From assembly GCF_001645125.1 (NCBI RefSeq), contig NZ_LXKA01000360.1, positions 124,001 through 188,000 on the forward strand: a stretch of DNA of 64,000 nucleotides, in the 5' to 3' direction. This document shows, piece after piece, positions 40,562 through 63,984 of the stretch. Source of the stretch: Paraburkholderia ginsengiterrae (GTDB lineage Bacteria > Pseudomonadota > Gammaproteobacteria > Burkholderiales > Burkholderiaceae). Position 1 is the first letter of the stretch. Every line of letters starts with the position of its first letter. The position numbers and the translations under genes were made by a program. Under the pieces are notes generated by a model. It was not told the origin of the DNA. It saw only the letters and a list, made by a program, of their open reading frames with translations, and searched no databases.

Positions 40562-40604
40562 GATGGGTTCCCCCTACCGCAAGTGTAGGGGGGTGCCCCA
40601 TCCC
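40562..40604 (+). promoter_or_regulatory. copy A of the shared oxidase-regulon element
   Basis: Nested dyad: GATGGG (40562-40567), CCCCCTAC (40570-40577), GTAGGGGG (40585-40592) and CCCATC (40597-40602). The words CCTACCGCAAG and TGTAGGG-N2-GTGCCCCAT recur upstream of two other transcription units in this window. It is about 130 bp before the first multicopper-oxidase-like gene. Confidence 0.72.
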
Positions 40605-40687
40605 AGGCTACGGCGCTCTTGTCCAGAATCCAGATACGGGCCGATCTCAGAATGCAATCAGCCCGCATCCGCTGTAGAGCATGACGC

Positions 40688-40706
40688 CCGGCGCCTATCG
40701 CGCCGG
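40688..40706 (+). promoter_or_regulatory. stem-loop in the leader of the oxidase operon
   Basis: CCGGCGC-CTATC-GCGCCGG, a perfect 7-bp GC stem, ending 14 bases before the GGAGGT ribosome site of the first oxidase gene. A nine-codon frame (ATG 40681 to TGA 40710) overlaps it. Possible roles are mRNA stabilisation or translational control. Confidence 0.5.
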
Positions 40707-40729
40707 CTGACCCCTGGGACGGAGGTCAT

Positions 40730-42295
40730 ATGTTCAGTACCCACGCTTATCGCAGCAGTGTTGCCGCGCTGCTGTTCCTGCTATTCGCAGTTCCTTCATT
40801 CGGCCAGTCGTTCGCGGTGCAATGCCCGAGCACCACGCCGGCGCATCCGACGGCGCTGCCGCCAAACGCACCCGAGCCCCTCTACACCGGGCCGTCCTAT
40901 ACCGGACAGACCTCCGCCTCAACGGGCGTCATCAACGGGGCGATCAAGTGTCAGCAGATCGCCGGGGGTGACGGCTACGCGACGATGGCGAACGGCGTGC
41001 AGACCTACCTGTTCGCCTTCGGCCCCTTGTCGGGTCTCGCCGACATCAAGTCGGGCAATCCCGGCACCGAGTTCGCCTCGGTGTTCAACACCGTCGGCGA
41101 CCCCAGGTTGGACCCGACCTACAACGGCGCGGTCGGCCTTACGCCAGATCCGGATTCCGTGCCACCGGGCCAGTTGACCGGCCACGTCGATCCGCGGCCG
41201 ATCATGGACATTGGCGTGATGAATGGCAACGAGCCGGCGCCGATGATGGCGATCGACGAGGACGACGAGTTCTTCCTCACGCTGACCAACGTTGGGATGA
41301 TCATGCGCCCCGACCTGTTCGAGCGGCACACGGTGCACTTCCACGGCTACCCGAACGCCTCGTCGTTCTATGACGGCGTGCCGGACGCGTCGGTGGCGAT
41401 CAACATCGGCGCGAGCTTCACCTACTACTACCTCGCGCCGGATGCCGGGACCTACTTCTGGCACTGCCACATCACGCCGCCGGAGCACCTGCAGATGGGC
41501 ATGGTCGGTCAGATCTTCGTGCGGCCGCGCCAGAACCGCGTGCCCGCCAGCGCGTCGCTGTACGCCTCGCTACAGAAGCAGCAACTGGATCTGCGCACGG
41601 CGTGCGGCAACGACATTCTGTGCACGACGCCGCTGCCGCCGTCGAACGGCGTGCTCCACGCCAACAACAAGAGCGGCTCGCCAACGCTCTACGCGTACAA
41701 CGACGGTGACGGCTCGACTGCCTACGACGTCGAGTATCCGGTGCAGATCCACGGCTTCGATCCGAACTTCCACTTCGTGGGCATGACGTTCAATCCGGAG
41801 CCGTTCACCGACATGAAGGACAAGTTCTTCATGCTGAACGGGCGCAGCTATCCGGACACCGTGAATCCAAATCCGCTCTCGACACCGGTTGCCGACGGCA
41901 CGCAGCATTTTTCCCAGCCGCTGCCGGCGCTGATCAACATTCCGGCCGGTGGCAGGGCGCTCCTGCGGATCTCGGACCTCGACGTCACCGAGTATCAGAC
42001 GCTCGCCTCGCTGGGTATTCCGATGCACGTGGTCGGCATCAACGCACGCCTGCTGCGCGACATGTCCGGCAACGACATGACTTACAACACGAACTCGATC
42101 ACCTTGGGCGGCGGCGAATCGATCGACGTGATCCTCGACGCCAGCGACACGTCGAAATATAGGCCGGGTGCGATCTATTACCTGTACACGCCGAATCTCG
42201 ATCACCTGGCCAACGACCAGGAGAACTTCGGTGGCTTGATGACCGAGGTCCACATCTGCAACAGCGTGGACCCGACCAAGAAGTCCTGCACCTAG
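40730..42295 (+). CDS. multicopper-oxidase-like protein carrying the type 1 copper half-site
   Basis: 521 residues, exported (signal peptide ending at SFGQS). The first cupredoxin domain has HTVHFHG (H200, H203, H205) and WHCHITPPEHLQMGM (H245, C246, H247, H253, M258): a type 1 site (H200, C246, H253, M258) plus four trinuclear-centre histidines. The HCH-to-His gap is five residues rather than the usual three. The second half (about 330-521) is cupredoxin-like but has no copper ligands (MHVVGINARLL replaces HPxHxHG). A complete multicopper oxidase needs eight trinuclear His, so this protein alone looks insufficient. The start has GGAGGT at only 4-bp spacing. It is first in the operon. Confidence 0.82.
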   Translation: MFSTHAYRSSVAALLFLLFAVPSFGQSFAVQCPSTTPAHPTALPPNAPEPLYTGPSYTGQTSASTGVINGAIKCQQIAGGDGYATMANGVQTYLFAFGPLSGLADIKSGNPGTEFASVFNTVGDPRLDPTYNGAVGLTPDPDSVPPGQLTGHVDPRPIMDIGVMNGNEPAPMMAIDEDDEFFLTLTNVGMIMRPDLFERHTVHFHGYPNASSFYDGVPDASVAINIGASFTYYYLAPDAGTYFWHCHITPPEHLQMGMVGQIFVRPRQNRVPASASLYASLQKQQLDLRTACGNDILCTTPLPPSNGVLHANNKSGSPTLYAYNDGDGSTAYDVEYPVQIHGFDPNFHFVGMTFNPEPFTDMKDKFFMLNGRSYPDTVNPNPLSTPVADGTQHFSQPLPALINIPAGGRALLRISDLDVTEYQTLASLGIPMHVVGINARLLRDMSGNDMTYNTNSITLGGGESIDVILDASDTSKYRPGAIYYLYTPNLDHLANDQENFGGLMTEVHICNSVDPTKKSCT

Positions 42296-42305
42296 GAGAA
42301 GAGCC

Positions 42306-43970
42306 GTGGGACACATCACTCACAACACATGGATCGCCATGCTCGCGCGCCGCTTTGGGCGCGTTGGGCGGCTCGCACGGTTCGGCGCGGCGACGCTCGC
42401 CGCGCTCGCCTGCATGAACGCGCACGCCGCCGCGCCTGGCATCACGGGGACGCACTTCGATCTGAGCGCCGAGGCGAACCGCATCACCCAGCCCGACGGC
42501 GGGAGCGTTTACTCGTGGGGTTATGGATGCCGCACGGCGCCGGCCGGTTTTTCGCCGCCAACGATTGCGGGCGCGACCTGTCCGAGCATGCAGATTCCCG
42601 GTCCGACGCTGATCGTCAAGCAGGGCGATGTCGTCACGGTGACGCTCACCAACAATCTGCCGGCCGCGGCGGGCAACACCTCGATTCTCTTTCCCGGATT
42701 CCAGGTCTGCGCCGCCGTCCTGAACCCCGACGGGACCTGTCCCGCGGCGCTCACCGGCTCGCCGGGCCTGCTGACCCGCGAGGCCACCCACGGCACCACG
42801 GTGACGTATAGCTTCGTGGCGGCGACGCCTGGCACACACGCGTACTACAGCGGCACTCAGGGCGATCTGCAGATCGAGATGGGCTTGTATGGCGCGATCA
42901 TCGTTTTGCCGACCTCGTCGCCCGGTAACGTCGCGGTGCCCGCTGGCTGCCGTGCGGTCGCGGCGACGCTGCCGGATGGGCAGCCGGACTTCCGCAATGC
43001 CGGTGCGGCTTACAATCACAGCGCCGCCTGCTACGACCGTGAGTATCTTTTTCAGTTCTCCGAAATGGATCCGCGCATTCATGAACAGGCGGAGCAGCAG
43101 GCGGGCAACACGTGCACGGCACCGAGCGGCTGCATGACCGTCGAGACGGAGCCCTACCACCCGGCCTATTTCATGGTCAACGGCCGCTCCATGCCGGACG
43201 ACATGGATCCGAACTACGCGGTGCAGTATCCGCATCAGCCCTACAACGGCAATCCGCACATGCACCCGGGTGAACTGGTGCTGTTGCGCATCATCGGAAC
43301 CGGCCGCTGGCAGCATCCGTTCCACGAGCACGGCAATCACGTGCGGGTGCTGGCGCGCGACGGCAACATGCTGCTCAGCAAGACCGACTCGACCAAGGTG
43401 GCAGGCCCGCTGCTGTTCACGACCACCACCACACCGGGCCTCGCGATGGACGGCATTTTCTACTGGACGGGCAAGGGTCTGAACTGGGATGTCTACGGAC
43501 ATAAACCCAGCGACGTGTACACCGATACCGCTCCGCAATTCGCGGCTTACCTCGGCAAGCCAGTCGTCTGCACTCCGGACGCGAACGGCTATTACACGGC
43601 CGACCCGCATGCGCCGAATTACTACGAGTGGTGCGCGGATCACGGCAAGGCGCTCGAAGCGCATCCGTTCGGCAACGTCGGCAGCGGCGGACCAGTGACT
43701 TTGCCGGACTCGCACGTGCTGACCAATGGCTTCTGGTATGGCGGCAGTCCCTATCTCGGACCTGATGCAACGATCCGCGCGACGGCGCCCACCGGGACCA
43801 CCCCGCCGAGCGGAACCGTCGTGAATCCGCCGGCAACCGAAGCAGGCTTCGCATTCATGTGGCACTCGCATAACGAGCGCGAGATCACCACGAACAACAT
43901 CTTCCCAGGCGGAATGATGATGATGATGCTCGTCGATCCACAGGCTTTCCTGATTGACGAATCCAATTAG
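42306..43970 (+). CDS. multicopper-oxidase-like protein carrying the complementary trinuclear half-site
   Basis: 554 residues with a signal sequence (ATLAALACMNAHAAAPG). The N-terminal cupredoxin domain lacks ligands: ILFPGFQVC and HAYYSGTQGD stand where HxHG and HSH normally are. The C-terminal part has HPFHEHGNH (H337, H340, H342) and MWHSHNERE (H520, H522), giving four trinuclear His but no type 1 Cys; an M-rich GGMMMMM follows. GTG 42306 is chosen because GGAGAAGAGCC precedes it. It is 10 bp after the previous gene. Together the two proteins supply the full ligand set, so a heteromeric oxidase is proposed. Confidence 0.82.
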   Translation: MGHITHNTWIAMLARRFGRVGRLARFGAATLAALACMNAHAAAPGITGTHFDLSAEANRITQPDGGSVYSWGYGCRTAPAGFSPPTIAGATCPSMQIPGPTLIVKQGDVVTVTLTNNLPAAAGNTSILFPGFQVCAAVLNPDGTCPAALTGSPGLLTREATHGTTVTYSFVAATPGTHAYYSGTQGDLQIEMGLYGAIIVLPTSSPGNVAVPAGCRAVAATLPDGQPDFRNAGAAYNHSAACYDREYLFQFSEMDPRIHEQAEQQAGNTCTAPSGCMTVETEPYHPAYFMVNGRSMPDDMDPNYAVQYPHQPYNGNPHMHPGELVLLRIIGTGRWQHPFHEHGNHVRVLARDGNMLLSKTDSTKVAGPLLFTTTTTPGLAMDGIFYWTGKGLNWDVYGHKPSDVYTDTAPQFAAYLGKPVVCTPDANGYYTADPHAPNYYEWCADHGKALEAHPFGNVGSGGPVTLPDSHVLTNGFWYGGSPYLGPDATIRATAPTGTTPPSGTVVNPPATEAGFAFMWHSHNEREITTNNIFPGGMMMMMLVDPQAFLIDESN

Positions 43971-43987
43971 AGGCGGGGAGAAGCGCG

Positions 43988-46900
43988 ATGAGATCCACCC
44001 AGTTTAAAGCGACCCTCTTCGACCTGTTCAAGGCAGGGGTTGCAGCGTCCATTCTGCTGACTGCCAGCAGCGTCTGTCTTGCTCAGGTCGTCAATCTGAC
44101 GGCGAAGGCGGGCACGGCTACCTTGCCGGACGGACAGGCCGTGCCGATGTGGGGCTACAGCTGCTCGGCGGCCGCGGTTGCGCCGGCGACCTGTGCGTCG
44201 GCGAATCCGGGTGCCGGAGCGAGCTGGTCGCCCGTGGTGATCACCGTGCCGCCAGGACCGCTGACGATCAATCTCACCAATACCTTGCCCGGCGCGGTGC
44301 CGACCTCGCTCGTCGTGGTTGGGCAGCTGGGCGGCGGCCTCGGGACGACGGCGACAACCATGCCGAGCCCGCCGCACCCGACGCAAACCGCGACGACCTG
44401 GCCGATTGCCAGCAGCGCGACCGGCGCGACCTTCACGCCGCCCGCGCAAGGCCCGCGCGTTCAGTCGTTTGCCACCGAGGTGGCGACCGGCAAGACAACC
44501 GCGCTCACGTGGAGCAACCTCAGCCCCGGCACCTATCTGCTCGAGTCGGGCACGCATCCGTCGATCCAGGGGCCGATGGGGCTCTACGGCGTGCTGGTGG
44601 TGAAGGCGCCGGTCGGCGGCACCGTGAGTTGTCCGGTGGCGTCGCAGGTCTATCAGGCCTACACGAATCCGGGCATCTGCTATGACGCCGACGTGCCGCT
44701 CGTGCTGGGCGAAATCGATCCCGCGCAAAACACGGCTGTTGCGGCAGCGGTGACGACGCCGGGCTTCAGCGAGACCATGGCGTGGTCAGGGCAGCCCGGT
44801 GGATGCGGCGATTCGAAGTCGACCGCGTTCGGCACCTGCTATCCGCCGACTGTGAACTACGATCCGCGCTACTACCTGATCAATGGCGTCGCATTCGACC
44901 GGACCAATGCCGGTGGATCTTCATTTGCCGCCACCGCGCCTGCCTTGACGGGCCAGGTGCTGCTGCGTTTCGTCAACGCGGGTTCGCGCATGCACGTACC
45001 CTCGGTGGTCGGTGCGCAAACCGGCAATCCGGCCACCTCCGGCTTCTCGCTGATCGCCGAGGACGGCAATGTGCTGCCTGGCAATCCGCGTGTCCAGTCG
45101 GAAGTGTTTCTGGCGGCCGGCAAGACCTACGACGTGATGATCAATGCACCGGCGACCGGCGCATCGGCGCTTCCGGTGTTCGACCGCGAACTGAGCCTGT
45201 CCACCAACAATCAGCGTGACGGCGGGATGCAGGCTTACGTCGCCGTCAATGGTGGTGCGCTGCCGACGGCCGGGGCCGCGAACCAGAATGCGACCGCCGC
45301 CAACTCCAAGTACTTCTTTGTTCCGGGCACCACGTTGACTGTGTCGGACCCGGCCAAGGGCGTGAAGGCAAACGATGTGAATGTGTATGGCGTCGAGGTC
45401 AAGACGACGACCACGGGCGGAGCGCTGACGCTGAACCCGGACGGCACCTTCGTCTACGTGCCGAACTCCGGCACGACCGCTGACAGCTTCGTATATCAGG
45501 CCAACGGCAACCCCTTGGTATTTGCAACCGTCACGCTGACGGCCTGCAGCGCTGCGAACGGCTGCCTGTCGGGGCCACCGACGGCGAGCAACGGCGCTTA
45601 CGTCAGCAACATCGCGTCGCAATTGCAGATCGGCGCGCCCGGCGTGCTGGCCTATGCCTCGGATCCGAAGGGACTGGCAATGACGGCGGCCATTTCTGGT
45701 GCTGTGACAGGCGGGACCGTCACGCTGAATCCGGATGGATCGTTCACCGCGATTCCGACGACGCCCCCGGTCGGCAACGCGACCGCCACGCTGACGTTCA
45801 AGTACACGGCGAAGAATTCGCAGTCCACGTCGAGCCTGCCCGCGACCGTGACGGTCACGTTCAAGGGCGGCAGCGGACTCATCGTCAAGCCGCTTGACGG
45901 GCCGAGCACGGCGCCGGGCATGACGCCGGTTCAGCTGACCGACTACCGCTGGATCATCGAGGAAGACCGTACGTTCCAGATCGATCCGGCGTGCCAGACA
46001 ACCGCGTCCACGCGTCCCGCTACGTGCCCGCCGTTGCCGGTTCCGAGCCTCGGCGCCAACTTCCACACCAGCTACATGCCGGTGGTGGCCGCAGGCTGTG
46101 TCGGCAAGGTTGCCTGCGAGTCGGGGCAGAAGGTGTATGACCCGGCGACCAACTCGCACCTGCCGGCCGTGTGCGATATCGGCAACGGCGTGTGCCGCAC
46201 GACGGCTGCGCAGCAGGTGCCGGTCGATCCGTCGCGGGTCGCGCTCGATCCGAAGAAGCACTACTACATCTCGATCCTGCCAGGCGACGCCGGCAACAGT
46301 TTCGGCAATGGTGCGGGCACGCCGCAGCCGGTCGATCCGTTGAAGCCGACCGGGCCGCAAAGACCGTTCGATATTTCCAAGGACTGCCCGACGGGTCCTG
46401 GCGGCGCGGATTTTGCGCCGGGCACGGGTAAGTGCGGCCACACCATGGGCGGCGCGCCGATCGCTCCCGGACAGACCACGGTCAACGTGCTGCTGCAGGA
46501 GACGCCGATGGCGACCGCGAAGGTCTCGGTGTTCGTCTTCGAAGACGACGCTCCGCTGAATGGCGAAGTGGATGTCAGCGGCGGCACCGACACGTTCGGC
46601 ACGGCGCGCGAACCGGGACTGGGCGGGTTCGAAATCAAGATGTGGGACGACGCGGGCGGCTCGGGCGACCCAACCGGACAGATGACTTACGACATGTTCA
46701 ACATGCCGCTGTCCAATTCATTGCAGGGGACTATCGATCCGGTCACAGGACTGAATGCGTGCCCGATTTCGACCTCGACCGACGGCCTCGTCGGCATGAT
46801 CCCGACGTGCCCGAAATACGAGTCGGACGGCAAGACTGTTTCGCCGCTCGTCGGCCAGGCCATCATTGCCAACCTGATGCCGGGCCGGTACGGTATCGTC

Positions 46901-49900
46901 GCGACACCGGCGGCCGACCGGATCGGCCGAGGCGAGGAATGGCTGCAGACGAACACGCTGGATGGCCAGAAGGCGCACGACTCGTTCATCAAGGTCGGTG
47001 GGCCGGCGTACTTCCAGGAGTTCGGGCCCGCAGGCTTTCACGTCGCGATCGGCTTCGCCAATCCGAAAATCATCAACGCCCGCCTGCCGCTCCTTTGCGC
47101 AACGCAGACGTGCAATAACGGAATCAAGGGCAGGGTAACGAACCTGCACTACAGCCGTCCACCGAACGAAAATCTGTTCGGCTCCGGCTCGCGCACCTCG
47201 CTGAGTTTCACGCAATGCTATGTCAGCGTCGGCGACCCGGACGGCGAGGATATGGCGTTCACCAAGTGCAACGCCGACGGAACCTTCAGCTTTAGCGGAC
47301 TGCCAACGGGCACATACAGAATCACGATCTTCGACCAATGGAACGATCAGATCGTCGATGGGCTCGCGACGGCCGTGCAACTGGCGAATGGCCAGACCAC
47401 GAATGTCGGGGATATTTCTGTGCTCCAGTGGCACACGAATCTCTACACGCGGACCTTCATGGATCTGAATGGCACGGGCGTCTCGACGGCAAGCGACCCG
47501 GGGCTCGCGCTGGTTCCGACCAATATCCGCTTCCGCGACGGCAGCTATTCGAACTTCAACAACACCGACCTGAACGGTTATGCATCGTTTAACGAAGTGT
47601 TCCCGCTGTTCAACTGGTACGTAGTTGACACCGACGAAACACGCTTCAAGCAGACCGGCGTGCACGTGGTGTACGACGCGGGCGGCCCGCCCGACGGCAC
47701 ACCTGGTGGCGGCAGCTCGACCATCGCCGCCAACTACGCCAACACGCTGGAATCCACGACGGCGCACTTGCCGACGAACCTGCGCGTGCCGGGGGCGGTG
47801 TATTGCAACGACGCGGACTGCAATGACCGCACGGGCACGAATCCGTCGACTGGCCGGGTCGATCCGCCGTGGGTGACCACGATGGGCTGGCAGGGCTTCT
47901 CCGGGCAGAGTTCCTTCCTCGAGTTTGGCAAGGCGCAGTTTGGCGCGACTGAGAACGGCGGCATCAGGGGCGAAGTCATCTATGCCTCGACACGGCCGTT
48001 CGACGATCCGTCGCTGCTGATCCACACGAAATGGACGCCTAACGTGCCGAACGTCACCGTGAACCTGTATCAGGAGGGCACCGCCGCGGACGGCACCACC
48101 AGCCTGACGCTGGTGGACACGACCAAGACTGCAAGCTGGGACGACTGGGCGCAAGGCTTCCGCTCCGACGGCGTGCCGAACATGAACTGCCCGGGACAGG
48201 AGACCACCGACCCGTTCTTCTACACGTTGAAGAACACACCCCAGTGGCTCGACCCGCAGAAGCGTGCGTTGCCGGCGAATTCGCAGTTCAAGTGCTACGA
48301 CGGCATGCACTCGTTCAACCAGCTGCAGCCCGCGCCGTACGACGGCATGTACCGGTTCCCCAGCGTGACGGGCCGCAGCACGACGAGCGGCAAGCCTACT
48401 GCCACGAACTGCACGATCTGCGTGGCCAACCCTTCGGGCGACGGCACGCAGATGCTGCCGGCCGGCAAGTACGTCGTCGAAGTGATCGTGCCGCCTGGCT
48501 ATGAACTGGTGAAGGAGGAAGACAAGAACATCCTGATCGGCGACAACTATATTGCCCCGGTCACGCAGCAGTTCGGCGGCATCGGCAACATCTTTATCCT
48601 GCCCGACCAGGCCGCGATGAACGCCAGCTATAACCGGAACAGTGCGCAGAATCCGACTCAGGATCTCGGCTCCCTGACCTACCCGCGGCATGAAGGCGAC
48701 ACGGGCAGCATCGAGGAGTTCTGGCCTTGTGTCGGTGAGCTGCGCATCGTGCCGGACTTCATCAGCCTGTTCCCGGGCTCGCAGGAAGTCTCGCCGTTCG
48801 CGGGCGCGTCAAGGCACCTGTGCGACCGCAAGGAAGTGACGTTGACGCCGCAAAGGACGGCGCTCGCGAAGTTCTGGCTTTTCAGTTCGACGCACGTCGC
48901 CGCGCACTACACTGGCTTCATGCTGGACGACTTCTCATCCGAGTTCGACCCGTACTCGCCGCAATTCGGTGAAAAGTTCGCGGTGCCGAACGTGCCGATC
49001 TCGATGAAGGATTTCGCCGGCAACGAAGTCGCCCGCACGTACTCGGATCAGTGGGGCATCTTCAACGGGCTGAACTATTCGACGTGGCAGGTCAACCCGC
49101 CGAACCCGACGGGCTACGCGCCGACGATGATGGTCGCCTGCATGAACGATCCCGACATGCCCGATCCGGCGCATCCCGGTCAGACGATACGCGATCCTCT
49201 GTTCAACCCGGCATACAGCCAGTTCTGTTACGAGATTCCGTTCATGCCTGGACAGACCCAGTACATGGATACGCCAGTGGTGCCGGTCTCGGCCTTCGCG
49301 GAAGGCTACAACCAGCCTGACTGCGCGTACCCGGATGCCACGCCGGCGATCTCCAGCGTGACGGGCGATCCGATCACCGGCGGCGGCTCGGGACCGTGGG
49401 TCAGCGGCGCGCTGCACACGCTGACCATCAATGCGCAGGGCAACGCGCAGGTGCCGAACCATGCCTATACGGGTCCGGCGGCGACCACCGCGCCGTTCAA
49501 CCAGAAGTTCCTCACGCGCCACTATGGTTTTGGCACCAAGCCTACGGCATGTCTGCCCGGCCTCCCGTGCCAGAACGTCACGGTCGGCGGCGTGCCTTCA
49601 ATCGTGACGTCATGGAGCGATACACAGATCAAGATCCTGGCTCCGGTCCTGCTGCCCACGCAGTCGAGCTGCACGATCCAGCAGCGCAATGTGCTGACGC
49701 CCACGTCCTGCGGTGAACTCGTTATCACGGCGGCCAACGGCAAGCGTTCGATCGACACGGTCACGGTCACGATCGGCGGCAAGATGCCGACCTACGTGAG
49801 CGGCGAGAACGCCACGAGCAACGCGATCCAGACGGTGATCGACAAGGCGACCCCGGGCGACATGATCGTCGTCGGTCCGGGGGTCTATAACGAAATGCTG

Positions 49901-53657: not shown

Positions 53658-53683
53658 CCATCATGCGTGCGAGGTCCATTGCC

Positions 53684-54520
53684 ATGACGCGAATCGCACT
53701 GTGGATGCTCATCGGCTGCCTGACGGCGGCGGTGTACGCGAGTGAGCAATTACCTGAGGGGCGTGATCTGAACGTGGATCAGATCGTCGCAAAAAATGTC
53801 GACGCCCGGGGTGGCCTCGAAGCGTGGAGGAAGATCGACACGATGGCCTGGGTCGGGCACGTGGATAGCGCGAATGCTCCTTCGGAAGAGCTGCCGTTCT
53901 CGCTCGCGCTGAAACGTCCGAACCTGACGCGCTTCGAAATCACCGTGCTCAACCATCGCGCTGTCCGTGCATTCGACGGCAAGCAAGGCTGGAAAACGAG
54001 CCCGAGCGCCACAGGCAGCGGAGAATTGCGACCGTACACCATCGACGAACTGAGGTCCGCGAAGGACGAGCAGGTGATCGACGGGTTGCTGATCGATCAT
54101 CAGGCCAAGGGCATCGAAGTCACGCTCGAAGGCAGCGACAAGCTCGACGGGCACGACGCTTACCGCCTCGCCGCGAAGTTGCCCTCCGGGGTGACGCGGC
54201 ATGTGTGGGTCGACGCGCAGAGCTTTCTCGACGTGAAGTATGACCGTGAGGCGCGCGGCCCTCGTGGGCCGGTCACGGTGGAAGTGAAGTACAGCGACTA
54301 CAAAAATGTCGACGGCGTGCAGGTGCCGTTCACGATCGAAAGCGGCGTAGTCGCGGCCGGCAGGAGCGACAGGCTGACGATTGAGAAAGTGTCGATCAAT
54401 CCGCCGCTCAACGACGCGATGTTCGCGAGGCCGGGCGCGCCGCTTCATCGCAATTCAGTGTCGGTAAATGCCGAGGCGTCGTTGCCCATGCCGCCCACCT
54501 TGAACCGGCCGAGCCCTTAA
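53684..54520 (+). CDS. LolA-like periplasmic protein 2
   Basis: 278 residues with a signal peptide ending AVYASEQ. It parallels the preceding protein block by block: QIVAKNVDARGGLEAWRKID, LALKRPNLTRFEITVLNHRA, FDGKQGWKTSPSA, RPYTIDELRSAKDEQVIDG, YSDYKNVDGVQVPFTIES. ATG 53684 has CGAGG nine bases upstream; the ATG at 53663 lacks a ribosome site. Tandem duplication followed by strong divergence suggests two different cargoes or a heterodimer. Confidence 0.75.
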   Translation: MTRIALWMLIGCLTAAVYASEQLPEGRDLNVDQIVAKNVDARGGLEAWRKIDTMAWVGHVDSANAPSEELPFSLALKRPNLTRFEITVLNHRAVRAFDGKQGWKTSPSATGSGELRPYTIDELRSAKDEQVIDGLLIDHQAKGIEVTLEGSDKLDGHDAYRLAAKLPSGVTRHVWVDAQSFLDVKYDREARGPRGPVTVEVKYSDYKNVDGVQVPFTIESGVVAAGRSDRLTIEKVSINPPLNDAMFARPGAPLHRNSVSVNAEASLPMPPTLNRPSP

Positions 54521-56226: not shown

Positions 56227-56288
56227 CGATGGGGTGGGGCGCGCACTGCCACGCGAGCACCATCGCCACCGCGCCATTGAGCGTCTCC

Positions 56289-56349
56289 CCTACCGCAAGA
56301 ATAGGACATTGACCCATGCCGGTTCCCGCTGTCGGTTTGCACAATATAG
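56289..56349 (+). promoter_or_regulatory. copy B of the shared element with downstream -10-like box
   Basis: CCTACCGCAAG (56289-56299), TAGG and TTGACCCATGCC (to 56320) match copy A in order and spacing. CACAATATAGACG follows at 56340-56352, 24 nt after CCCAT; nearly the same box (CACAATTAAGACG) lies 25 nt after CCCAT in copy D. It is the probable promoter of the cytochrome-porin operon. Confidence 0.7.
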
Positions 56350-56415
56350 ACGTGGCCTGAGTAGACGAGGCCTGAGACAAGGCAGGTTTTAAACACAGTG
56401 CAGGGAGAAATAGCC

Positions 56416-57801
56416 ATGGTTTTGACTATTATCAGCAATCCTGCATTTATCAAATGGCTGCGATGCGTGTGGTTCACGTCTTTCGTGGCAGTTTGCTTGT
56501 TCCAGGCTTCTATCGCTCACGCGCTGCCTATCTTCGCCCGTCAAACGGGTCAAAGCTGTGTGGCGTGCCATGCGGGCGGCCAGTTTCCCGAACTCACGCC
56601 CTATGGGCGCATGTTCAAGCTGAACGGTTATACGCTCGGTGAACGTACGATTCCGCTCGCCGTGATGGGCACGGTCGATGCGACCAAGACCAGGCACAAC
56701 ACCGACGCCAGCGGGAATCAGGTCTCACCCAAGGACGGCAATCTGACTTGGGACGCGGCCAGCATTTTCCTCGCCGGCAAGATTACCGACAAGATCGGCG
56801 CATTCGCTCAATATACCTATACGAACTACGATCACCAGGACGCTGCCGGCAAGTGGGTCGGTAAATGGGCATCGGACAACACCGATTTCCGTTTCGTGGA
56901 GCGGATTGTCAGCGAAGCGAGCGACTTCATACTAGGCGTAACGTTGCACAACAATCCGACTGTACAAGACGTCTTCAACTCCGCTCCGGCGTGGAGCTAC
57001 CCTTATGTTTCTTCGTCAACCAGCGCGGTTGGCTCACCGCCGTTCACCACGCTGATCGAAGGCGCGCTGGCGCAGCAGGTGGTAGGCATTGGCGGCTACC
57101 TCTACTGGAACAAGCTGCTGTACGCGGAACTGACCGCGTACAGCACGGCCGACGGCATCTGGTCGTTCCTGAGCCACGGCAACAAGGCCGGAGACCTCGC
57201 GCACCCGCAGGTCTATCTGAAAGGCTACAACCCCTATTGGCGCGTTGCGCTGACGCACGAATGGGGTCCGCACAACATCATGGTGGGCACGTTCGGCCTC
57301 TTTGCGGACGTCTATCCCAACGACCCGAATGCGTTTCCTATCTTCACGCAGGGCGTGACCCGCTTCCGCGATGTCGGGGTGGACGCGCAGTATCAGTATC
57401 TGCTGGAGCCGCATACGATCACCGCGCAGGCTCGTTATATTCACGAGAACATCAGTGATCCGAATAATTTTATCTACAGCGACAGCCAGTCGGCGAATCT
57501 CAAATCGGTGCTGCTGAAAGCCTCGTATATCTATCAGGCCAAGTACGGCATCAGCCTGTCTTACTTCAGCGTGACGGGCAGCACCGATAGCGCCGCCTAC
57601 GCCAGCAGCGCGAATTTCTCGCCCAACACGCAAGGCTGGACCCCGGAGATTTTCTGGATTCCGGTGCAGAACATCCGGGTCGGCCTGCAGTACACGCATT
57701 TCACCAAATTTCTCGGGTCCCGCTCGAACTACGACGGAAATGGGCGCAACGCGTCGGATAACGACACGCTGTTCGTCTACTTGTGGGCAGCGTACTGGTG
57801 A
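56416..57801 (+). CDS. Cyc2-like outer-membrane cytochrome-porin fusion
   Basis: 461 residues with an N-terminal export signal ending ASIAHALP. Immediately after it is the fused-cytochrome signature PIFARQTGQSCVACHAGGQF (C48, C51, H52), continuing PELTPYGRMFKLNGYTLGE. Residues about 75-461 are a beta-barrel: alternating aromatic strands, even spacing of Tyr/Trp, and a C-terminal aromatic (LWAAYW). This order, one haem then a porin, is that of Cyc2-type proteins, which move electrons across the outer membrane. ATG 56416 follows GGGAGAAATAGCC. Co-transcribed with a dihaem cytochrome. Confidence 0.78.
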   Translation: MVLTIISNPAFIKWLRCVWFTSFVAVCLFQASIAHALPIFARQTGQSCVACHAGGQFPELTPYGRMFKLNGYTLGERTIPLAVMGTVDATKTRHNTDASGNQVSPKDGNLTWDAASIFLAGKITDKIGAFAQYTYTNYDHQDAAGKWVGKWASDNTDFRFVERIVSEASDFILGVTLHNNPTVQDVFNSAPAWSYPYVSSSTSAVGSPPFTTLIEGALAQQVVGIGGYLYWNKLLYAELTAYSTADGIWSFLSHGNKAGDLAHPQVYLKGYNPYWRVALTHEWGPHNIMVGTFGLFADVYPNDPNAFPIFTQGVTRFRDVGVDAQYQYLLEPHTITAQARYIHENISDPNNFIYSDSQSANLKSVLLKASYIYQAKYGISLSYFSVTGSTDSAAYASSANFSPNTQGWTPEIFWIPVQNIRVGLQYTHFTKFLGSRSNYDGNGRNASDNDTLFVYLWAAYW

Positions 57802-57852: not shown

Positions 57853-58527
57853 ATGAAAAAGATAGCGCAATTCATCTCTCTCGGGATGGCGCTGGCAGGA
57901 GCGGGCTGTCACGACATGGACCGCTCACGAGCGGTCGATAACCCTGCCGTCGCGGGCAAGACCATCGCGCTGCAAGTCTGCTCGAACTGTCACGGCGTGA
58001 AGGGCGTCTCCATATCGCCGGCTTTTCCCAAGCTGGCGGGGCAGCGGCGCGAATACCTCGTCGATCAATTGACGGACTTCAAGACTCATGCGCGATCCGA
58101 CCCGAACGCCAAGCGGTTCATGTGGGGCTTTACGCACCTGAGCGAAGCGCAAATCGACGATCTGGCGGCGTATTTTTCCAGTCAGACGCCGGTGATGGGC
58201 GAACCCGCCGAGCAATCGCTCATGGTCGAAGGCAAGGCGATCTTCGCCTCGGGGTTGCCGGACAAGGGTGTCGCGGCATGCGTGTCGTGCCACGGCAAGC
58301 ATGGCGAGGGAATGAATCAGTTTCCGCGCTTAGCCGGACAACATGCGGACTATGTCTACAAGCAGCTGCTGGTTTTTCAGCACGACGTCGAACAAAGGCC
58401 ACGTGGTGAAATCATGAAGTCGATCTGCAGCAACATGTCGGAGCGGGATATGCGCGCCGTTGCGGCCTTCGTCGAGGCGTTTCCGCCGGAAACCGAGGCA
58501 GCGGCGAACCCGCCGGCCGACCAATGA
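57853..58527 (+). CDS. dihaem c4-type cytochrome
   Basis: 224 residues. Two cytochrome c domains: CSNCH (C43, C46, H47) and CVSCH (C143, C146, H147), each followed by LAGQ and a Met region (KRFMWGF; IMKSICSNMSERDM), the c4 arrangement. A Cys at position 19 (ALAGAGC) may be lipidated, though the lipobox is not canonical. AAGGAGGTTCGTGAC precedes the ATG. It can carry electrons between the cytochrome-porin at the outer membrane and inner-membrane oxidases. Confidence 0.87.
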   Translation: MKKIAQFISLGMALAGAGCHDMDRSRAVDNPAVAGKTIALQVCSNCHGVKGVSISPAFPKLAGQRREYLVDQLTDFKTHARSDPNAKRFMWGFTHLSEAQIDDLAAYFSSQTPVMGEPAEQSLMVEGKAIFASGLPDKGVAACVSCHGKHGEGMNQFPRLAGQHADYVYKQLLVFQHDVEQRPRGEIMKSICSNMSERDMRAVAAFVEAFPPETEAAANPPADQ

Positions 58528-58845
58528 GCACGCTGCCTTACCGGGCACCGCGCGCCCAGGTGGGGCGGGGCAGACTGCACCCAGGGCGGCCTACCCGCGC
58601 GGTGAGGGCAGGCCGCTGCACGGCAGCGGTGCCCACCAGGACGCAGGCATCGGTGTTGAGATCATCGCGGTTTGGAGCGCCGGTCGTATTGAGGCGGACG
58701 GGTGGCGCTCCATCCGCCGGCGGGCGCTTTTTTTTCAATCGACAGTGCGCACTCGCAGAGCGATTGGCGAAGCGCGCGCGTAGCGATTTCGGTCCATAGC
58801 ATGCGTCCGGCGTCGCATTGATAGTTCTGCGCAACGGTGAAGGCC
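58528..58845. other. intergenic region with probable terminator
   Basis: 318 bp. GC-rich dyads GGAGCGCC/GGCGCTCC (58674-58681, 58704-58711) and GGCGGA/TCCGCC (58693-58698, 58713-58718) precede an eight-T run at 58728-58735, so the cytochrome operon probably ends here. I looked for remains of a ResB (Ccs1) gene, which often sits between c4 and ccsB, and saw none. Confidence 0.55.
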
Positions 58846-60069
58846 ATGAACCCGACACGAATGTCTCTTGACGCCGGCACGCCGGACCTTGTGCCCGTGC
58901 TTCAACGGGACGGCGTAGAGCTGGATGCACGAGCGTTGGCGTCGCTCGACGAGCGGCCGTTCCTGAAACGGCTCGGCATCGTCGACTGGCTGTTCGCCCT
59001 CGCCATGGTGGCGGGCGCGGGGTTCGCGCTGTCGCGCTACTACCCGTTCATGAATTACTACGACAAGCTGGTGCTGGTTTGCGCCGTGCCGGTGTTCGTG
59101 GTGCTCGGCTGGCGCTGGAAGCCGGTGCGTCCGCTGATGGTGGGGATCGCCGCGCTGTCGCTGCTCGCCATCCAGATCTATCACGGCGATCTCAGCCGCG
59201 CGGACAACGCGTTCTTCCTCAAGTACTTCCTGTCGAGCCAGTCCGCGATTCTGTGGATGAGCGCGCTCTTCGTGTTCGCCACCGTGTTCTACTGGATCGG
59301 TTTGTTGTCGCGCTCGCCGACCGGCGCCGCGATCGGCTCGAAGATGACGTGGGCCGCGGTCGTGATGGGATTTGTCGGCCTGATGGTGCGCTGGTACGAG
59401 TCGTACCTGATCGGCGCGGACGTCGGCCATATTCCCATCTCGAACCTGTACGAAGTGTTCGTGCTGTTCAGCCTGATCACCGCGCTGTTCTACCTGTACT
59501 ACGAGCAGCACTACAACACGCGGGCGCTCGGCGCCTTCGTGCTGCTGGTGATCAGCGCCGCGGTTGGCTTCCTGATGTGGTACTCGGTGGCGCGCGACGC
59601 GCAGCAGATCCAGCCGCTCGTGCCGGCGCTGCAAAGCTGGTGGATGAAGATTCACGTGCCGGCGAACTTCATTGGCTACGGCAGCTTTGCGCTGTCGGCC
59701 ATGGTGGGGGTTGCGTATCTGATGAAAGAGCGCGGCGTGCTGGCCGACCGCCTGCCGGCGCTCGACGTGCTCGACGACGTGATGTACAAGTCGATCGCCG
59801 TCGGCTTCGCGTTCTTCACGATTGCCACGATTCTCGGCGCGCTGTGGGCCGCGGAAGCCTGGGGCGGCTACTGGAGCTGGGACCCGAAGGAGACGTGGGC
59901 GCTGATCGTCTGGCTGAACTACGCGGCCTGGCTGCACATGCGGCTCATGAAGGGGCTGCGCGGCGCGGTGGCGGCCTGGTGGGCGCTGACTGGCCTGCTG
60001 GTGACGACCTTTGCGTTCCTGGGCGTCAACATGTTCCTGTCGGGTCTGCATAGCTACGGCAAGCTGTGA
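58846..60069 (+). CDS. ccsB: cytochrome c biogenesis protein CcsB/CcsA (ResC)
   Basis: 407 residues, about eight membrane helices. The tryptophan-rich haem-handling motif WGGYWSWDPKETWALI is intact, with conserved flanking histidines (HVPANFIGYGSF; LHMRLMKGLRG). System II needs this protein with ResB to export haem and attach it to CXXCH. ATG 58846 is chosen behind GGTGAAGGCC; a GTG three codons earlier is possible. It follows genes for four haem sites in this window, so it may serve them, but no resB is adjacent. Confidence 0.9.
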   Translation: MNPTRMSLDAGTPDLVPVLQRDGVELDARALASLDERPFLKRLGIVDWLFALAMVAGAGFALSRYYPFMNYYDKLVLVCAVPVFVVLGWRWKPVRPLMVGIAALSLLAIQIYHGDLSRADNAFFLKYFLSSQSAILWMSALFVFATVFYWIGLLSRSPTGAAIGSKMTWAAVVMGFVGLMVRWYESYLIGADVGHIPISNLYEVFVLFSLITALFYLYYEQHYNTRALGAFVLLVISAAVGFLMWYSVARDAQQIQPLVPALQSWWMKIHVPANFIGYGSFALSAMVGVAYLMKERGVLADRLPALDVLDDVMYKSIAVGFAFFTIATILGALWAAEAWGGYWSWDPKETWALIVWLNYAAWLHMRLMKGLRGAVAAWWALTGLLVTTFAFLGVNMFLSGLHSYGKL

Positions 60070-60211: not shown

Positions 60212-60721
60212 ATGAGACGCATATACTTTCTGCTCCCCAGCACGCAATGTGCGCGGATGATTGTCGATGAACTCCTGTTGAAACGGATCACCTGGCGGCA
60301 CATCCACGTGCTCGCCAACCACAGCGTAACGCTCGATGACTTACCGGAGGCCTCGCTCGTCCAGAGCAGCGACGTGCTGCACGCGCTCGAGCGAGGGACG
60401 GCGGCGGGTTGTGCGACCGGCATGCTGACCGGCCTGGTCGCCATGGCTTTTCCGCCTGCCGGACTGACCATTGCGGGCGGGGTAGTCGTTGCGCTCACGC
60501 TCGCGGGCGGCGGCTTCGGCGCATGGACCGCGACCATGATCGGTCTCGGCGTGCCGAATACGCGCCTCAAACGCTTCGAACAGGCCATCGAGCACGGCGA
60601 GCTGCTGATGATGGTCGACGTTCCGCAGAACCGTGTCGATGAAATAGAAGACATGGTCAAGCTGCATCACGCAGAGGCTGACATCCAGGGAACGGAGCCA
60701 ACGATTCCCGCATTTCCGTAA
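60212..60721 (+). CDS. DUF1269-family membrane protein
   Basis: 169 residues. Soluble flanks surround a central Gly-rich double membrane segment (AAGCATGMLTGLVAMAFPPA and VVVALTLAGGGFGAWTATMI). RIYFLLPSTQCARMIVDELL at the start and HGELLMMVDVPQNRVDEIED near the end are DUF1269 features. Upstream lies the dyad GGTCCA-AA-TGGACC with GATATA nearby, a possible promoter/operator. Such proteins are often linked to stress; function unknown. Confidence 0.8.
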   Translation: MRRIYFLLPSTQCARMIVDELLLKRITWRHIHVLANHSVTLDDLPEASLVQSSDVLHALERGTAAGCATGMLTGLVAMAFPPAGLTIAGGVVVALTLAGGGFGAWTATMIGLGVPNTRLKRFEQAIEHGELLMMVDVPQNRVDEIEDMVKLHHAEADIQGTEPTIPAFP

Positions 60722-60821: not shown

Positions 60822-61454
60822 CTAACCCGCGGAGAGCATGCGCCGGTAGCGCTCCAGAACGCGCGGCACGTAAAGGCGTGTTTCCCGCAGCGAGGGCACG
60901 CGATAGCCCGCACGAATCACGGCATTTTCGCCGGCGTTGTAGGCGGCCACGGTGAGTTCGACATCGTCCTTGAAGAGATCGAGCAGGAAGCGCAGATAGC
61001 GTGCTCCCGTCAGCACGTTATCGCGTGGATTGAGCATGTCTCCTCCCGCGAAGCGCCGTGCTGTTTCGGGCATCACTTGCATCAGTCCTAGCGCGCCTTT
61101 TTCTGAAACCGCTTTCGGGTTATAGCGGGATTCGACGTCGATCACCGCGCGCAGGAGTTCGGGCTGAACGCGAAAGGTGCGGCTCGCTTCGGCGATCACA
61201 TCGGCGAACTGCGACGCGTCTCCGTTGCCGGGCGTCGAGGTATCCGCGCGCTTCGCGCCGCGTTCGGCGGGCGGATCGCCGGCAACGATGACAGCCAGTC
61301 CTGCTTTGCCGGGCTCGTTGGTCAGGACGATGGCTCCATTGCTCTGAACCGCACCAAAAATCTCCGCGCATGCAGCTACCGGTGAAGCCATGCCAAGCAC
61401 CGCGCATGCGACGAGTATCGTGTTTACCGGTCTGGATGAAGAGCTGCAGCGCAT
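60822..61454 (-). CDS. lytic transglycosylase (SLT domain)
   Basis: 210 residues with a signal peptide (VACAVLGMASPVAACAE). A DUF4124-like short start (IFGAVQSNGAIVLTNEPG) precedes the SLT goose-lysozyme-like domain: catalytic Glu108 in VIDVESRYNPKAVSEKGALG, then LMQVMPETARRF and TVAAYNAGENAVIRAG. It cleaves peptidoglycan in the periplasm. ATG 61454 is eight bases after GGGGGA. Copy D of the shared element lies in its promoter, which links it to the oxidase operon rather than to general cell-wall turnover. Confidence 0.9.
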   Translation of the reverse strand: MRCSSSSRPVNTILVACAVLGMASPVAACAEIFGAVQSNGAIVLTNEPGKAGLAVIVAGDPPAERGAKRADTSTPGNGDASQFADVIAEASRTFRVQPELLRAVIDVESRYNPKAVSEKGALGLMQVMPETARRFAGGDMLNPRDNVLTGARYLRFLLDLFKDDVELTVAAYNAGENAVIRAGYRVPSLRETRLYVPRVLERYRRMLSAG

Positions 61455-61470
61455 GGTCATGTTCCCCCGC

Positions 61471-61532
61471 GTCTTAATTGTGGTGTGGGGAAAAGCCGAG
61501 CGGCAATGGGGCACCTCCCTACACTTTTGCGG
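61471..61532 (-). promoter_or_regulatory. copy D of the shared element with -10-like box
   Basis: Read on the minus strand: CCGCAAAAGTGTAGGGAGG then TGCCCCATTGCC (61532 to 61502). GTGTAGGG-N-GGTGCCCCAT is almost identical to copy A. CACAATTAAGACG (to 61470) follows 25 nt after CCCAT, as in copy B. It precedes the transglycosylase gene. Confidence 0.7.
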
Positions 61533-62012
61533 CGGCGGACAAACGTTTCGAGGGGCTGTACAAAAGCGTTACGTTCGTAACGCGCGGTAAACGTCCGCAA
61601 TCGAACCCGTCTCGCGGCTGGGTTTCTCGGGAGGGGAAATATTTCTGATTTTGTTAAACGCGCGGTAAGTCTTGCCTCACGGGAAGATTTTGTGCGTAAT
61701 GCCTACCGCATCAGTATTGGCACTAATCTCCGCGCCGGCTCGGATCAGTTCAAATATGAAACATTCGCGTAGCTGTTTTCAGCCATGGCAAACGTCTTAC
61801 GAATATGACGTACTGGACAACATTGGGTTACGGGGACATGGCGCGAACCTTGCGAAGGGGAGGCGGACTGCTACCCATGCGCGTGCAAAATTAAGGGAAC
61901 AGTTAGGAATTCGAAGGTAGAAGGTGCAAGAAAAAGACGAGACCTGCGGCGAACTGCACTGAGAGGCTTCAACGCATGGTCGCGACCAGTTCATGGTTGC
62001 AGGGGTAAACAA
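61533..62012. other. upstream region of the response regulator gene
   Basis: 480 bp with no credible gene. A degenerate copy (C) of the shared element starts at 61702 (CCTACCGCA, then TATTGG) and has AAATATG about 42 nt further on, a layout like copies A and B. This would allow autoregulation. The rest is AT-richer than its surroundings. No distinct ribosome site precedes ATG 62013 beyond a weak GGGGTAAACAA. Confidence 0.5.
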
Positions 62013-62810
62013 ATGAATGCCAACTGCCGTGTCGTGATTGCCGAAGATCACGATCTGCTGAGAAACGGTCTGCGCTCGATGCTCTCCGCGCAAGGCGACT
62101 ACCACGTCGTCGGCGAAGCGAGAGACGGCAAGGAAGCCTGCCAACTGGCGATGACGCTGCACCCCGATCTGATCCTGATGGATCTGTCGATGCGTGGCAT
62201 GAATGGCATCGATGCCAGCGCGGCAATCAAACGCCGCTCGCCGAACGTGCGCATCGTCGTGCTCACGGTTCACCAGAGCGAAGAGTACGTGCGCGAGGCG
62301 CTGCGCGCCGGCGTCGACGGCTACGTGCTGAAAGACGTCTCGTTCGACGAACTGCTGATCGCGATGCGCACCGTCATGCACGGGAAGAAACATCTGAGCG
62401 CCGACGTGTACGGCTTTATGGTCGACTCGTTCGTGACGGGTCACGATGCGCCCGCACCGAAGAAGGCCTGGGACATTCTGACGGCGCGCGAGCGCAGTGT
62501 GCTGAAACTGATCGCCGAAGGACGCACGAACCGGCAGGTCGGGCAGTACCTGAACCTCAGCCCGAAGACGATCGAGAAGTATCGGGCCAGCATGATGCAC
62601 AAGCTCAACATTGCCAACCTGACCGAACTGGTTCTGGTCGCGATCAGCATGGGTCTGCTGACTTCGCTAGCGGAGAAATGCTCCGAGCCGCATGCCGACG
62701 AGACGCCATTGCGATCGCCGGCCAACCTCGACATGGAATTGGATCCGCCGCCGGAGCCCCCCGCGGACACGGATTTTCCGAACTACAGTTTGGGCGGCGG
62801 CGCAATCTGA
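62013..62810 (+). CDS. NarL/FixJ-type response regulator
   Basis: 265 residues. Receiver domain with acidic pair E11/D12 (IAEDHDLL), phosphoacceptor D57 (LILMDLSM), Thr in VVLTVHQ and Lys in GYVLKDVS. LuxR-type helix-turn-helix at about 153-198: [20 protein letters not shown], then [19 protein letters not shown]. An acidic Pro-rich tail of about 50 residues ([11 protein letters not shown]) is extra for the family. It is convergent with a histidine kinase gene and lies next to the regulon that shares the promoter element, so it is the best candidate to bind it. Confidence 0.92.
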
Positions 62811-62850
62811 GCGCATTCCGGGCGCAGTCCGTGTGCAACCCGCAACCTCA

Positions 62851-63984
62851 CTAGGCAGCCCATGCCGCCGACACCAGTGTGCCGCTCTTACCGAGCGACT
62901 GGATCGAAAACGTGCCACCGTGCGACTCGACCCGGTGTTGCATGCCGATGAGACCGAGTCCGCTTGCACAGTCGTCCCCCGTAGAAAGCGGACGGTTTTC
63001 GTAGCCGATGCCGTTGTCCAGAATCGTCATCAGCACGCCGCCTGTCGTGAGCCTGACGCCAAGCGTCACCTCTGTGGCTGCAGCGTGCTTGACGGTGTTG
63101 TTCAACGCCTCCTGAGCGAGCCTGAACATGTCGGCTTTCAGATGTTCCGGCACGTCCTCGTCGCTCACGTCGCAGTCGAACACCACCGAGATGCCTTCGG
63201 CGCTGCGCTCGATGCGCCGGCACAACGAACCCAATGCGGCGGGCAGTCCGAGCTGATCGAGCATCTGCGGGCGCAGTTCGCCGCATATCTGCCGCACGTC
63301 GCCGATCGTCTCGCGGATTCTGAGCACGGTGGCATCCAGCAGCTGGGCCGCGTCGTCGACCTGCCCGCGGCGTATGCGCATCAGCGCGTCTTCAGCCATC
63401 AGCTTGACGAGCGTCAGTGCCTGCCCGAGACCGTCATGCAATTCCGCCGAAAGGCGCTGGCGTTCTTTCTGTTGGCCCATCGTCAGGTACATGAGGCGTT
63501 CCCGCGCGGCAGCATCGGCCGAACGCGTGACAGAGGCCGGTTCGGGCAGGGGGAGCAGGGATTCCTCGAAAAGCGTCAGCAGCGCAGTGCGACCGCTCTG
63601 GCCGGCCGGCACCGACTGCTGGTGCAACATGAGGCGCATTGGCTGGCCGGTGCGGCCGGCGAGCACCGCACGAAAAGAATGAAAGTCGCGCCGTGCGCTC
63701 GCGGACAATTCGTTCGCCAGCGGCTCTTCAAAGTCGGCCGCCGCCATCTCGAGGAGTTGCCTGCCGACCAGGTCGGCGCTCGTGTAGCCGAGCAGGGCCG
63801 CAACCGTGCGATTCGCGGACAGGAAGATGCCATCCGGCGAAAGAATCGCCAGCGGCGCGCCACGCGCATCGGGCATGCTGCCCGTGCCCGGCTCGTAGTG
63901 CCGGGCGGCTCTGCACAGCTTGCGCATGCCGTCGATCAGGTCGGCCAGCTTCACCTGCCATTGCGTGGGCTCGTTGGTATTCAT
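62851..63984 (-). CDS. cytoplasmic sensor histidine kinase (PAS, HisKA_3)
   Basis: 377 residues with no membrane segment. A PAS domain at about 42-145 (LAILSPDGIFLSANRTVAAL, GYTSADLVGRQLLEM) is followed by the HisKA_3 dimerisation block with phospho-acceptor H183 (ERQRLSAELHDGLGQAL). The ATPase domain has an N box (EALNNTVKHA), G1 (DNGIGYE) and G2 (GLGLIGMQHR). HisKA_3 kinases pair with NarL/LuxR-type regulators, here the convergent gene 40 bp away. The soluble form suggests sensing of an internal cue such as redox state. Confidence 0.92.
   Translation of the reverse strand: MNTNEPTQWQVKLADLIDGMRKLCRAARHYEPGTGSMPDARGAPLAILSPDGIFLSANRTVAALLGYTSADLVGRQLLEMAAADFEEPLANELSASARRDFHSFRAVLAGRTGQPMRLMLHQQSVPAGQSGRTALLTLFEESLLPLPEPASVTRSADAAARERLMYLTMGQQKERQRLSAELHDGLGQALTLVKLMAEDALMRIRRGQVDDAAQLLDATVLRIRETIGDVRQICGELRPQMLDQLGLPAALGSLCRRIERSAEGISVVFDCDVSDEDVPEHLKADMFRLAQEALNNTVKHAAATEVTLGVRLTTGGVLMTILDNGIGYENRPLSTGDDCASGLGLIGMQHRVESHGGTFSIQSLGKSGTLVSAAWAA

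Follow-up and report, generated by a model that had tools for sequence, protein, structure and literature searches.

In two-domain multicopper oxidases (MCOs), adjoining subunits form the trinuclear copper centre between them, one contributing domain 1 and the other domain 2. Two-domain MCOs assemble as trimers (PMC13151041). Large exported MCOs of the OmpB/MofA (MnxG) type carry their H-x-H motifs in one chain and are found beside a protein joining cytochrome c to a periplasmic binding domain; He et al. 2017 described such MofC-like proteins, also in OmpB/MofA-type clusters, whose operons have the cytochrome fusion in common and in some cases hold SCO (PMC5566968). The cyc2 gene of Acidithiobacillus shares an operon with cyc1, which encodes a dihaem c4 cytochrome (PMC2754497), and Keffer et al. 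gave the signature AXPXFAR[QK][TY] before CXXCH, with PXL after it, as unique to Cyc2 (PMC8406198). A further cluster, Slit_1812-1818, comes from the iron oxidiser Sideroxydans lithotrophicus ES-1; its abundance on magnetite exceeded that on Fe(II)-citrate, its roles were called unknown, and similar clusters were named in Paraburkholderia, Ralstonia, Anaeromyxobacter and Steroidobacteraceae (PMC12016527). Here, we analysed a stretch of 64,000 nucleotides (contig NZ_LXKA01000360.1, positions 124,001 to 188,000; termed the window; G+C 62.9%) from the 8.5-Mb genome of Paraburkholderia ginsengiterrae, annotated from 36.6 kb onwards, which holds a cluster of this description with the copper motifs of an oxidase divided over two proteins, MCO1 and MCO2.

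Seven genes at 40730-56226 lie co-directional and head to tail, with intergenic gaps of 2-42 bases, and this arrangement reads as one tight operon:

40730..42295, plus strand: MCO1, a two-cupredoxin protein (Cu-oxidase_3, E 3.8e-14)
42306..43970, plus strand: MCO2, a paralogue of MCO1 (Cu-oxidase_3, E 4.4e-11)
43988..52258, plus strand: giant exported protein of 2756 residues, with a degenerate MCO module at the N-terminus (MCO3, about residues 35-460), Ig/cadherin-like and SdrD_B domains and a C-terminal beta-helix-like region
52272..52766, plus strand: P164, a conserved exported protein of 164 residues (no Pfam family above cut-off)
52809..53657, plus strand: LolA-like protein 1 (PF17131, 30.9 bits, cut-off 30)
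53663..54520, plus strand: LolA-like protein 2 (PF17131, 27.8 bits, below the cut-off of 30)
54523..56226, plus strand: monohaem cytochrome c with a presumed periplasmic-binding domain, of MofC-like architecture (PF00034 at threshold)

In gene content and order the cluster fits the published account of ES-1, to which it was likened by description. By that account, both have a row of three cupredoxin proteins, of which the last is far larger and bears adhesin-like and polysaccharide-lyase-like domains, together with small proteins, SCO1 and a mofC-like cytochrome (PMC12016527, PMC5566968). An earlier note on this DNA had put the system forward as a candidate undescribed one, a label that has to be given up since the ES-1 cluster, so far uncharacterised, is in print and similar clusters in Paraburkholderia are mentioned there (PMC12016527, PMC5566968). 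A search by three of the ES-1 locus tags gave only the magnetite paper (PMC12016527). In contrast to the window, two of the ES-1 proteins are described with typical MCO motifs, and the available parts of both papers mention neither a split site nor a dyad nor a co-switched Cyc2-type gene. Likewise, literature searches by domain names gave no papers, and those for split or heteromeric MCOs found, among the papers listed, no report of a split site, a dead third copy or a shared switch, and it is these features, the last being shared with a Cyc2-type gene, that look new.

The ligands of MCO1 and MCO2 are complementary. MCO1 carries a type-1 copper set (H200, C246, H253, M258) and one half of the trinuclear ligands (H203, H205, H245, H247), all kept in 72/72 aligned rows, whereas MCO2 has no type-1 Cys, has lost the domain-1 ligands and holds the other trinuclear half, H340 and H342 (HPFHEHG) and H520 and H522 (WHSH), kept in 99-100% of 74 rows; short proteins are excluded from these alignments, and one of the MCO2 rows (L039) is actually a giant. 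The complementary halves proposed in the earlier note were borne out by a motif scan, leaving out L003-L005 and proteins outside the length limits, which detected the domain-1 set only in 68/68 MCO1 proteins and the domain-2 set only in 70/70 MCO2 proteins. The solved two-domain MCOs 3g5w and 2zwn have the same domain pair, the type-1 copper in domain 1 and the same spacing of the domain-1 ligands, and domain 1 of both MCO1 and MCO2 aligns well to them. Compared with seven ordinary two-domain MCOs, the MCO1 profile aligned over both domains (E 6.8e-20), where both domain-1 motifs coincide and both domain-2 motif places are lost. The corresponding MCO2 alignment (E 5.1e-17) has lost the domain-1 motifs and places HPFHEHG on the domain-2 motif, with the WHSH segment matching the last H-x-H of the ordinary MCOs in a separate, weak alignment. 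The ordinary two-domain MCOs aligned here combine both ligand sets in one protein, whereas in the window MCO1 has the type-1 Cys-His-His-Met set in domain 1, neither protein has all trinuclear histidines in its own polypeptide, and the complete set is obtained from the MCO1-MCO2 pair. Judged from this ligand pattern, the oxidase active site is very probably split between MCO1 and MCO2. An assignment of the two proteins to CopA/CueO was rejected, as these models scored far below their cut-offs.

The giant following MCO2 starts with a signal-like stretch (judged by eye), and its N-terminus matches MCO2 at 33% identity (E 2.4e-4). Within the first 640 residues of the giants, 66/71 have no copper motif and 5/71 have one loose H-x-H. 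Four distant loci (L126, L157, L158, L159; MCO1 about 35-38% identical to that of the window) have MCO3 as a gene of its own, clearly paralogous to MCO2 (for example E 2.7e-24), in the gene order scaffold, MCO1, MCO2, MCO3, P164, SCO1, cytochrome fusion; from this we conclude that the window giant is a dead oxidase copy joined to a scaffold, its N-terminus being the third MCO. The divergent loci L127 and L160 have MCO3 fused to the scaffold. The exported beta-helix protein of the earlier note is retained for the C-terminal third, read as beta-helix because of two matches, one to choice-of-anchor Q that exceeds its cut-off and a weak NosD-like one that falls far short, while the MCO-like N-terminus had been missed; a beta-helix adhesin only was accordingly rejected. 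A search of the PDB with the giant yielded no match. On the acidobacterial contig L076 the giant gene is apparently interrupted or frame-shifted. Since two-domain MCOs are trimeric and the ligand losses complement each other, an MCO1-MCO2-MCO3 heterotrimer is a fairly probable arrangement.

The window system shares with the OmpB/MofA (MnxG-type) operons a large exported protein of MCO type beside a cytochrome c/binding-domain protein, here 54523-56226 by its domain content, and SCO1, here past the window end. It differs in that its copper motifs are spread over two chains, and no single giant chain holding all four copper motifs was found in it. Open reading frames (ORFs) of about 2000 residues in L180, L182 and L183, with the type-1 motif HCHFYPHFAQGM in the N-terminal third, are accompanied on their stretches by SCO1 and a cytochrome c/binding-domain gene and are presumably of MofA/MnxG type, judging from size and neighbours. 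The same company surrounds an ordinary-looking MCO ORF of 655 residues in L178. Of four ORFs tested, the MCO1 profile found none and the MCO2 profile one, marginally (L183, E 5e-4), and plain MCO1-MCO2 fusions were thus rejected as an account of the MofA-type giants.

Loci were found by the giant, with the best 80 of 119 stretches kept, of which 75 are named by title (43 beta-proteobacterial, 26 acidobacterial, 6 other); this set is selected by the giant, whereas a draw of 120 genomes of the family was not so selected. In that draw MCO1, MCO2 and a giant segment each occur in 9/120 genomes, and these are the identical nine (one draw, own genome included), so that, for these three, the singly occurring homologues which the earlier note had named as speaking against a common system were not seen. 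Neighbours were counted by tblastn with the window proteins (E up to 1e-4) at loci with enough flank, 6 kb downstream in the case of the cytochromes. MCO1 and MCO2 stand directly before the giant in 42/42 beta-proteobacterial, 22/23 acidobacterial and 3/3 other loci. P164 follows downstream of the giant (42/42, 15/17 and 3/3, respectively), and a LolA-like gene was present in 40/40, 10/15 and 3/3. The cytochrome fusion was found in 40/40 beta-proteobacterial, 0/15 acidobacterial and 2/3 other loci, and the cytochrome-porin in 23/40, 0/15 and 0/3. This distribution of core and shell therefore leaves MCO1, MCO2, the giant and P164 as the minimal set seen. The cluster is a real system and not a chance neighbourhood; the single system of the earlier note stands as to gene linkage and co-occurrence, but its cytochromes are no universal core. 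SCO1 lies near 26/78 loci and the transglycosylase near 30/78.

The system is rare: when the phylum was sampled, the MCO2 profile (E up to 1e-15) matched 2/299 genomes, one of them the window's own. A draw from the order gave matches to the MCO1 profile in 27/349 genomes; seven of these can be assigned to the system from the length of the match, the remaining matches covering only the type-1 domain of about 100 residues or less. In an MCO1 tree (67 rows) the acidobacterial and beta-proteobacterial groups are for the most part separate; the exceptions are Granulicella, which lies next to the beta clade, and two metagenome-assembled genomes, one gamma- and one delta-proteobacterial, among the acidobacterial rows. 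Among the best 80 of 119 stretches, the nearest named relatives by locus belong mostly to Paraburkholderia (P. madseniana, P. sediminicola, P. aspalathi), along with Burkholderia sp. OK233, with best segments 90-91% identical to the window locus. Genome G037 (contigs C17, C53, C69, C123) holds a divergent copy of the system, with MCO1 and MCO2 about 51-61% identical, while other contigs partially match a closer copy; one in-frame TGA is reported in its divergent MCO1 match.

Past the operon, three genes for cytochromes and their assembly follow, the first of them starting 171 bases beyond the cytochrome c fusion:

56398..57801, plus strand: Cyc2-type monohaem cytochrome-porin fusion (ALPIFARQT-GQS-CVACH-AGGQF-PEL; no Pfam match)
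57853..58527, plus strand: dihaem c4-type cytochrome (two CxxCH)
58837..60069, plus strand: CcsB, c-type cytochrome assembly (TIGR03144, 250.5 bits, cut-off 187.6)

The Cyc2 signature, searched as a pattern of flexible spacing, is present in 23/23 locus orthologues and in 12/12 fetched genome matches, and the length of 467 residues, taken by itself, fits a Cyc2 with a 16-stranded porin domain. A close orthologue (at least 68% identity) occurs in 8/9 core genomes compared with 1/111 others (Fisher 1e-10), in one of the core genomes (G112) on another contig, which substantiates the tie between the Cyc2-type porin and the system drawn in the earlier note; weaker homologues (about 46-50%) are found in 11 further genomes without the core. 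The dihaem c4 cytochrome accompanies the porin in 22/23 loci, and CcsB was found only in loci also holding the porin. In two of the 23 loci (L032, L046) the porin lies on the other strand, elsewhere in the locus. Signature, size and adjoining dihaem c4 liken the window pair to the Cyc2/Cyc1 (c4) of iron oxidisers. It differs in the linkage of the porin to an MCO operon and in its heterotrophic hosts. The porin and c4 pair (56398-58527) has a G+C of 58.1% compared with 63.8% in the preceding operon, which would fit a separately acquired block.

Both units share an upstream element, a dyad, of which the earlier note had counted three or four sites:

40560..40605, plus strand: dyad ATGGGT-CCCTAC-N7-GTAGGG-CCCAT before MCO1 (site 40573; matrix score 53.0; 0 mismatches)
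56285..56320, plus strand: second copy, before the cytochrome-porin (site 56289; matrix score 35.8)
61538: third, weaker copy just upstream of the transglycosylase (matrix score 15.0)

The best score among 20 base-composition shuffles of the window was 6.6. The matrix was built from MCO1 sites, so that the MCO1 scores are partly circular, while the porin and transglycosylase sites lie outside it. Two strong copies and a weaker third thus remain, whereas the fourth, at 61702 before the regulator, was rejected as it has 3 mismatches, a level at which 4 matches compare with a chance mean of 2.6. A site scoring at least 14 within 300 bp before MCO1 was found in 39/42 beta-proteobacterial loci, mostly 150-160 bases ahead, and in 0/27 acidobacterial or other loci. 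The porin copy recurs, in addition to the window, in 11/21 relatives (L032 and L046 left out of the count) and the transglycosylase copy in 11/30 relatives having that gene. Across the whole 8.5-Mb genome only two sites have at most one mismatch, namely those before MCO1 and before the Cyc2-type gene. Twelve further hits with two mismatches were dismissed, as 14 hits in all compare with 107 for the reversed control, at or below chance. The NarL-type regulator encoded next door presumably binds the dyad as an activator site.

The genes further downstream are, in order after CcsB:

60212..60721, plus strand: DUF1269-like small protein (match below cut-off)
60822..61514, minus strand: SLT lytic transglycosylase (PF01464, 5.3e-28)
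62013..62810, plus strand: NarL/LuxR-type response regulator, presumed dyad binder
62851..63984, minus strand: PAS-HisKA_3 sensor kinase (domain matches)

All of the genes named in the earlier note were recovered in their places through domain matches, CxxCH counts and the Cyc2 signature. The two LolA-like proteins are paralogues by cross-hits, and the first passes its Pfam cut-off narrowly while the second stays below it. Regarding the proposed cytochrome c-binding-protein fusion, the Pfam match, at threshold, covers the cytochrome half only, and a fold search aimed at the binding domain matched only the cytochrome part of the fusion; the binding half is assigned because of the published description of MofC-like proteins (PMC5566968). 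Genome G564 (L184, L179) has three cytochrome c/binding-domain genes, and in the oxidase locus two of these stand in tandem. The DUF1269-like gene adjoins the system in 12 loci, lies upstream in L048 at 40% and belongs to the linked block in certain relatives. Just beyond the window end, after the kinase gene, stretch L185 shows SCO1 along with another NarL-type regulator that shares 55% identity with the one in the window. Upstream of the oxidase operon, a flavoprotein-monooxygenase-like gene lies at 36614-37999, and window positions 20540-24598 match CusB/CusA-type efflux genes distantly (22-29% identity), presumably an unrelated RND system.

Based on these features we favour a heteromeric, exported surface MCO for donors of the Fe(II)/Mn(II) type, to which we assign a probability of roughly one half; the Fe/Mn-type nature of the donor taken by itself is a tentative assignment, slightly short of even. 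The exported, copper-dependent oxidase would act on the outer surface or within the outer periplasm, as a ring of paralogous two-cupredoxin subunits supplied by MCO1, MCO2 and the giant's N-terminal module. Such a ring would contain one type-1 copper, in MCO1, and one trinuclear centre formed by domain 1 of MCO1 with domain 2 of MCO2, whereas the catalytically dead MCO3 would tether the enzyme to the scaffold and SCO1 would load the copper. The type-1 site may draw electrons from an outside donor, for which Fe(II), Fe(II) bound in minerals and Mn(II) are the likeliest candidates, and the trinuclear site may hand these electrons to O2. In the beta-proteobacteria, the cytochrome fusion, and in part also the Cyc2-type porin and c4 in the manner of cyc2-cyc1 of Acidithiobacillus, could carry electrons inward, with kinase and regulator switching both units through the dyad. 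Of this picture, the sequences themselves show the linkage of the genes, the complementary ligands, the common element and the Cyc2 signature, whereas heteromeric assembly, location, substrate, the direction in which electrons flow and the pairing of regulator and dyad are inferred. We lean towards regarding the whole as a new MCO architecture, an asymmetric heterotrimer with one active site shared by two proteins and a dead paralogue as its anchor to a giant surface scaffold, under a two-component system of its own that also switches a Cyc2-type iron oxidase.

Several observations weigh against this surface oxidase and have to be set beside rival explanations. The second-domain alignments to 3g5w and 2zwn are not significant on their own. 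Furthermore, among 13 ordinary MCO-like ORFs used as control, seven (L144-L149, L154) have both sets in one chain by motif positions and one (L156) is of another type, and the other five have the domain-1 set only, so that the missing second set of MCO1 is not unusual in itself; the case for the split lies in the reciprocal set of the neighbouring MCO2, the invariance of both sets and their co-occurrence. These five ORFs, the complete type-1 site in MCO1 alone and the cytochrome fusion following in all 40 beta-proteobacterial loci would also suit MCO1 as a mononuclear type-1 (blue copper) carrier with structural MCO2 and MCO3, that is, a conduit rather than an O2-reducing oxidase. We consider this quite improbable, because a pure carrier would not need trinuclear ligands, which are invariant or nearly so in MCO1 and MCO2 across phyla.

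Further points against the surface oxidase come from partners and hosts. No relative of the cytochrome fusion, porin or c4 of the window was detected in 15/15 acidobacterial loci. A close Cyc2-type gene occurs in G065, where the core is missing, and the core in G037, where nothing matches the porin, and the dyad is absent before the porin in 10/21 relatives. No export machine for the giant was found among the annotated neighbouring genes, and none was sought genome-wide. CusBA-type pump genes lie near 7/26 acidobacterial loci, and weakly near an eighth, which suggests metal or copper handling. In L042 the CusB/CusA-type RND genes are at 22628-27351 with Pfam support, and others were noted in L044, L053, L059, L068, L070 and L076, weakly also in L080. 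Together with SCO1 near a third of the loci counted and the presence of the system in Cupriavidus metallidurans CH34, these pumps would agree with copper or other metal homeostasis, in which a surface cuprous oxidase or a metal-detoxifying MCO like CopA/CueO would act with the scaffold as a metal sink. This alternative is unlikely, though worth keeping in view, since no CusBA genes were seen near beta-proteobacterial clusters in the loci searched, beyond 25% CusA matches in four, the CopA/CueO models fail on the window MCOs, a Cyc2-type gene lies on the same element, and the ES-1 cluster rises on magnetite, in a report whose available passages contain no copper test (PMC12016527).

Paraburkholderia, Burkholderia and Collimonas, which are among the carriers, live as heterotrophs and are not known to oxidise iron, which likewise speaks against the favoured reading. 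Many carriers are soil or plant-associated, as judged from record titles, and two-domain laccases are among the nearest solved relatives, both in keeping with a laccase-like system for extracellular oxidation of phenols, humics or lignin fragments without energy gain. The Cyc2 and c4 partners and the ES-1 data nevertheless point to metals (PMC12016527, PMC8406198), which makes a laccase-like role rather unlikely. We conclude that the cluster is a genuine, conserved and uncharacterised exported oxidase system, most likely a heteromeric MCO acting on donors of the Fe(II) or Mn(II) type; copper handling and phenol oxidation are serious alternatives to this reading.

Little is known so far about how bacteria obtain electrons from Fe(II) and Mn(II) outside the cell, whether solid or dissolved, and the ES-1 cluster provides no more than a proteomic lead. 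Should the split reading be true, it would supply a testable enzyme and a minimal set, MCO1, MCO2, the giant and P164, common to Burkholderiales and Acidobacteriota, together with a specific induction switch and culturable hosts. The system would then show how gene duplication has, in nature, made a symmetric enzyme ring asymmetric, in parallel to the giant single-chain MCOs.

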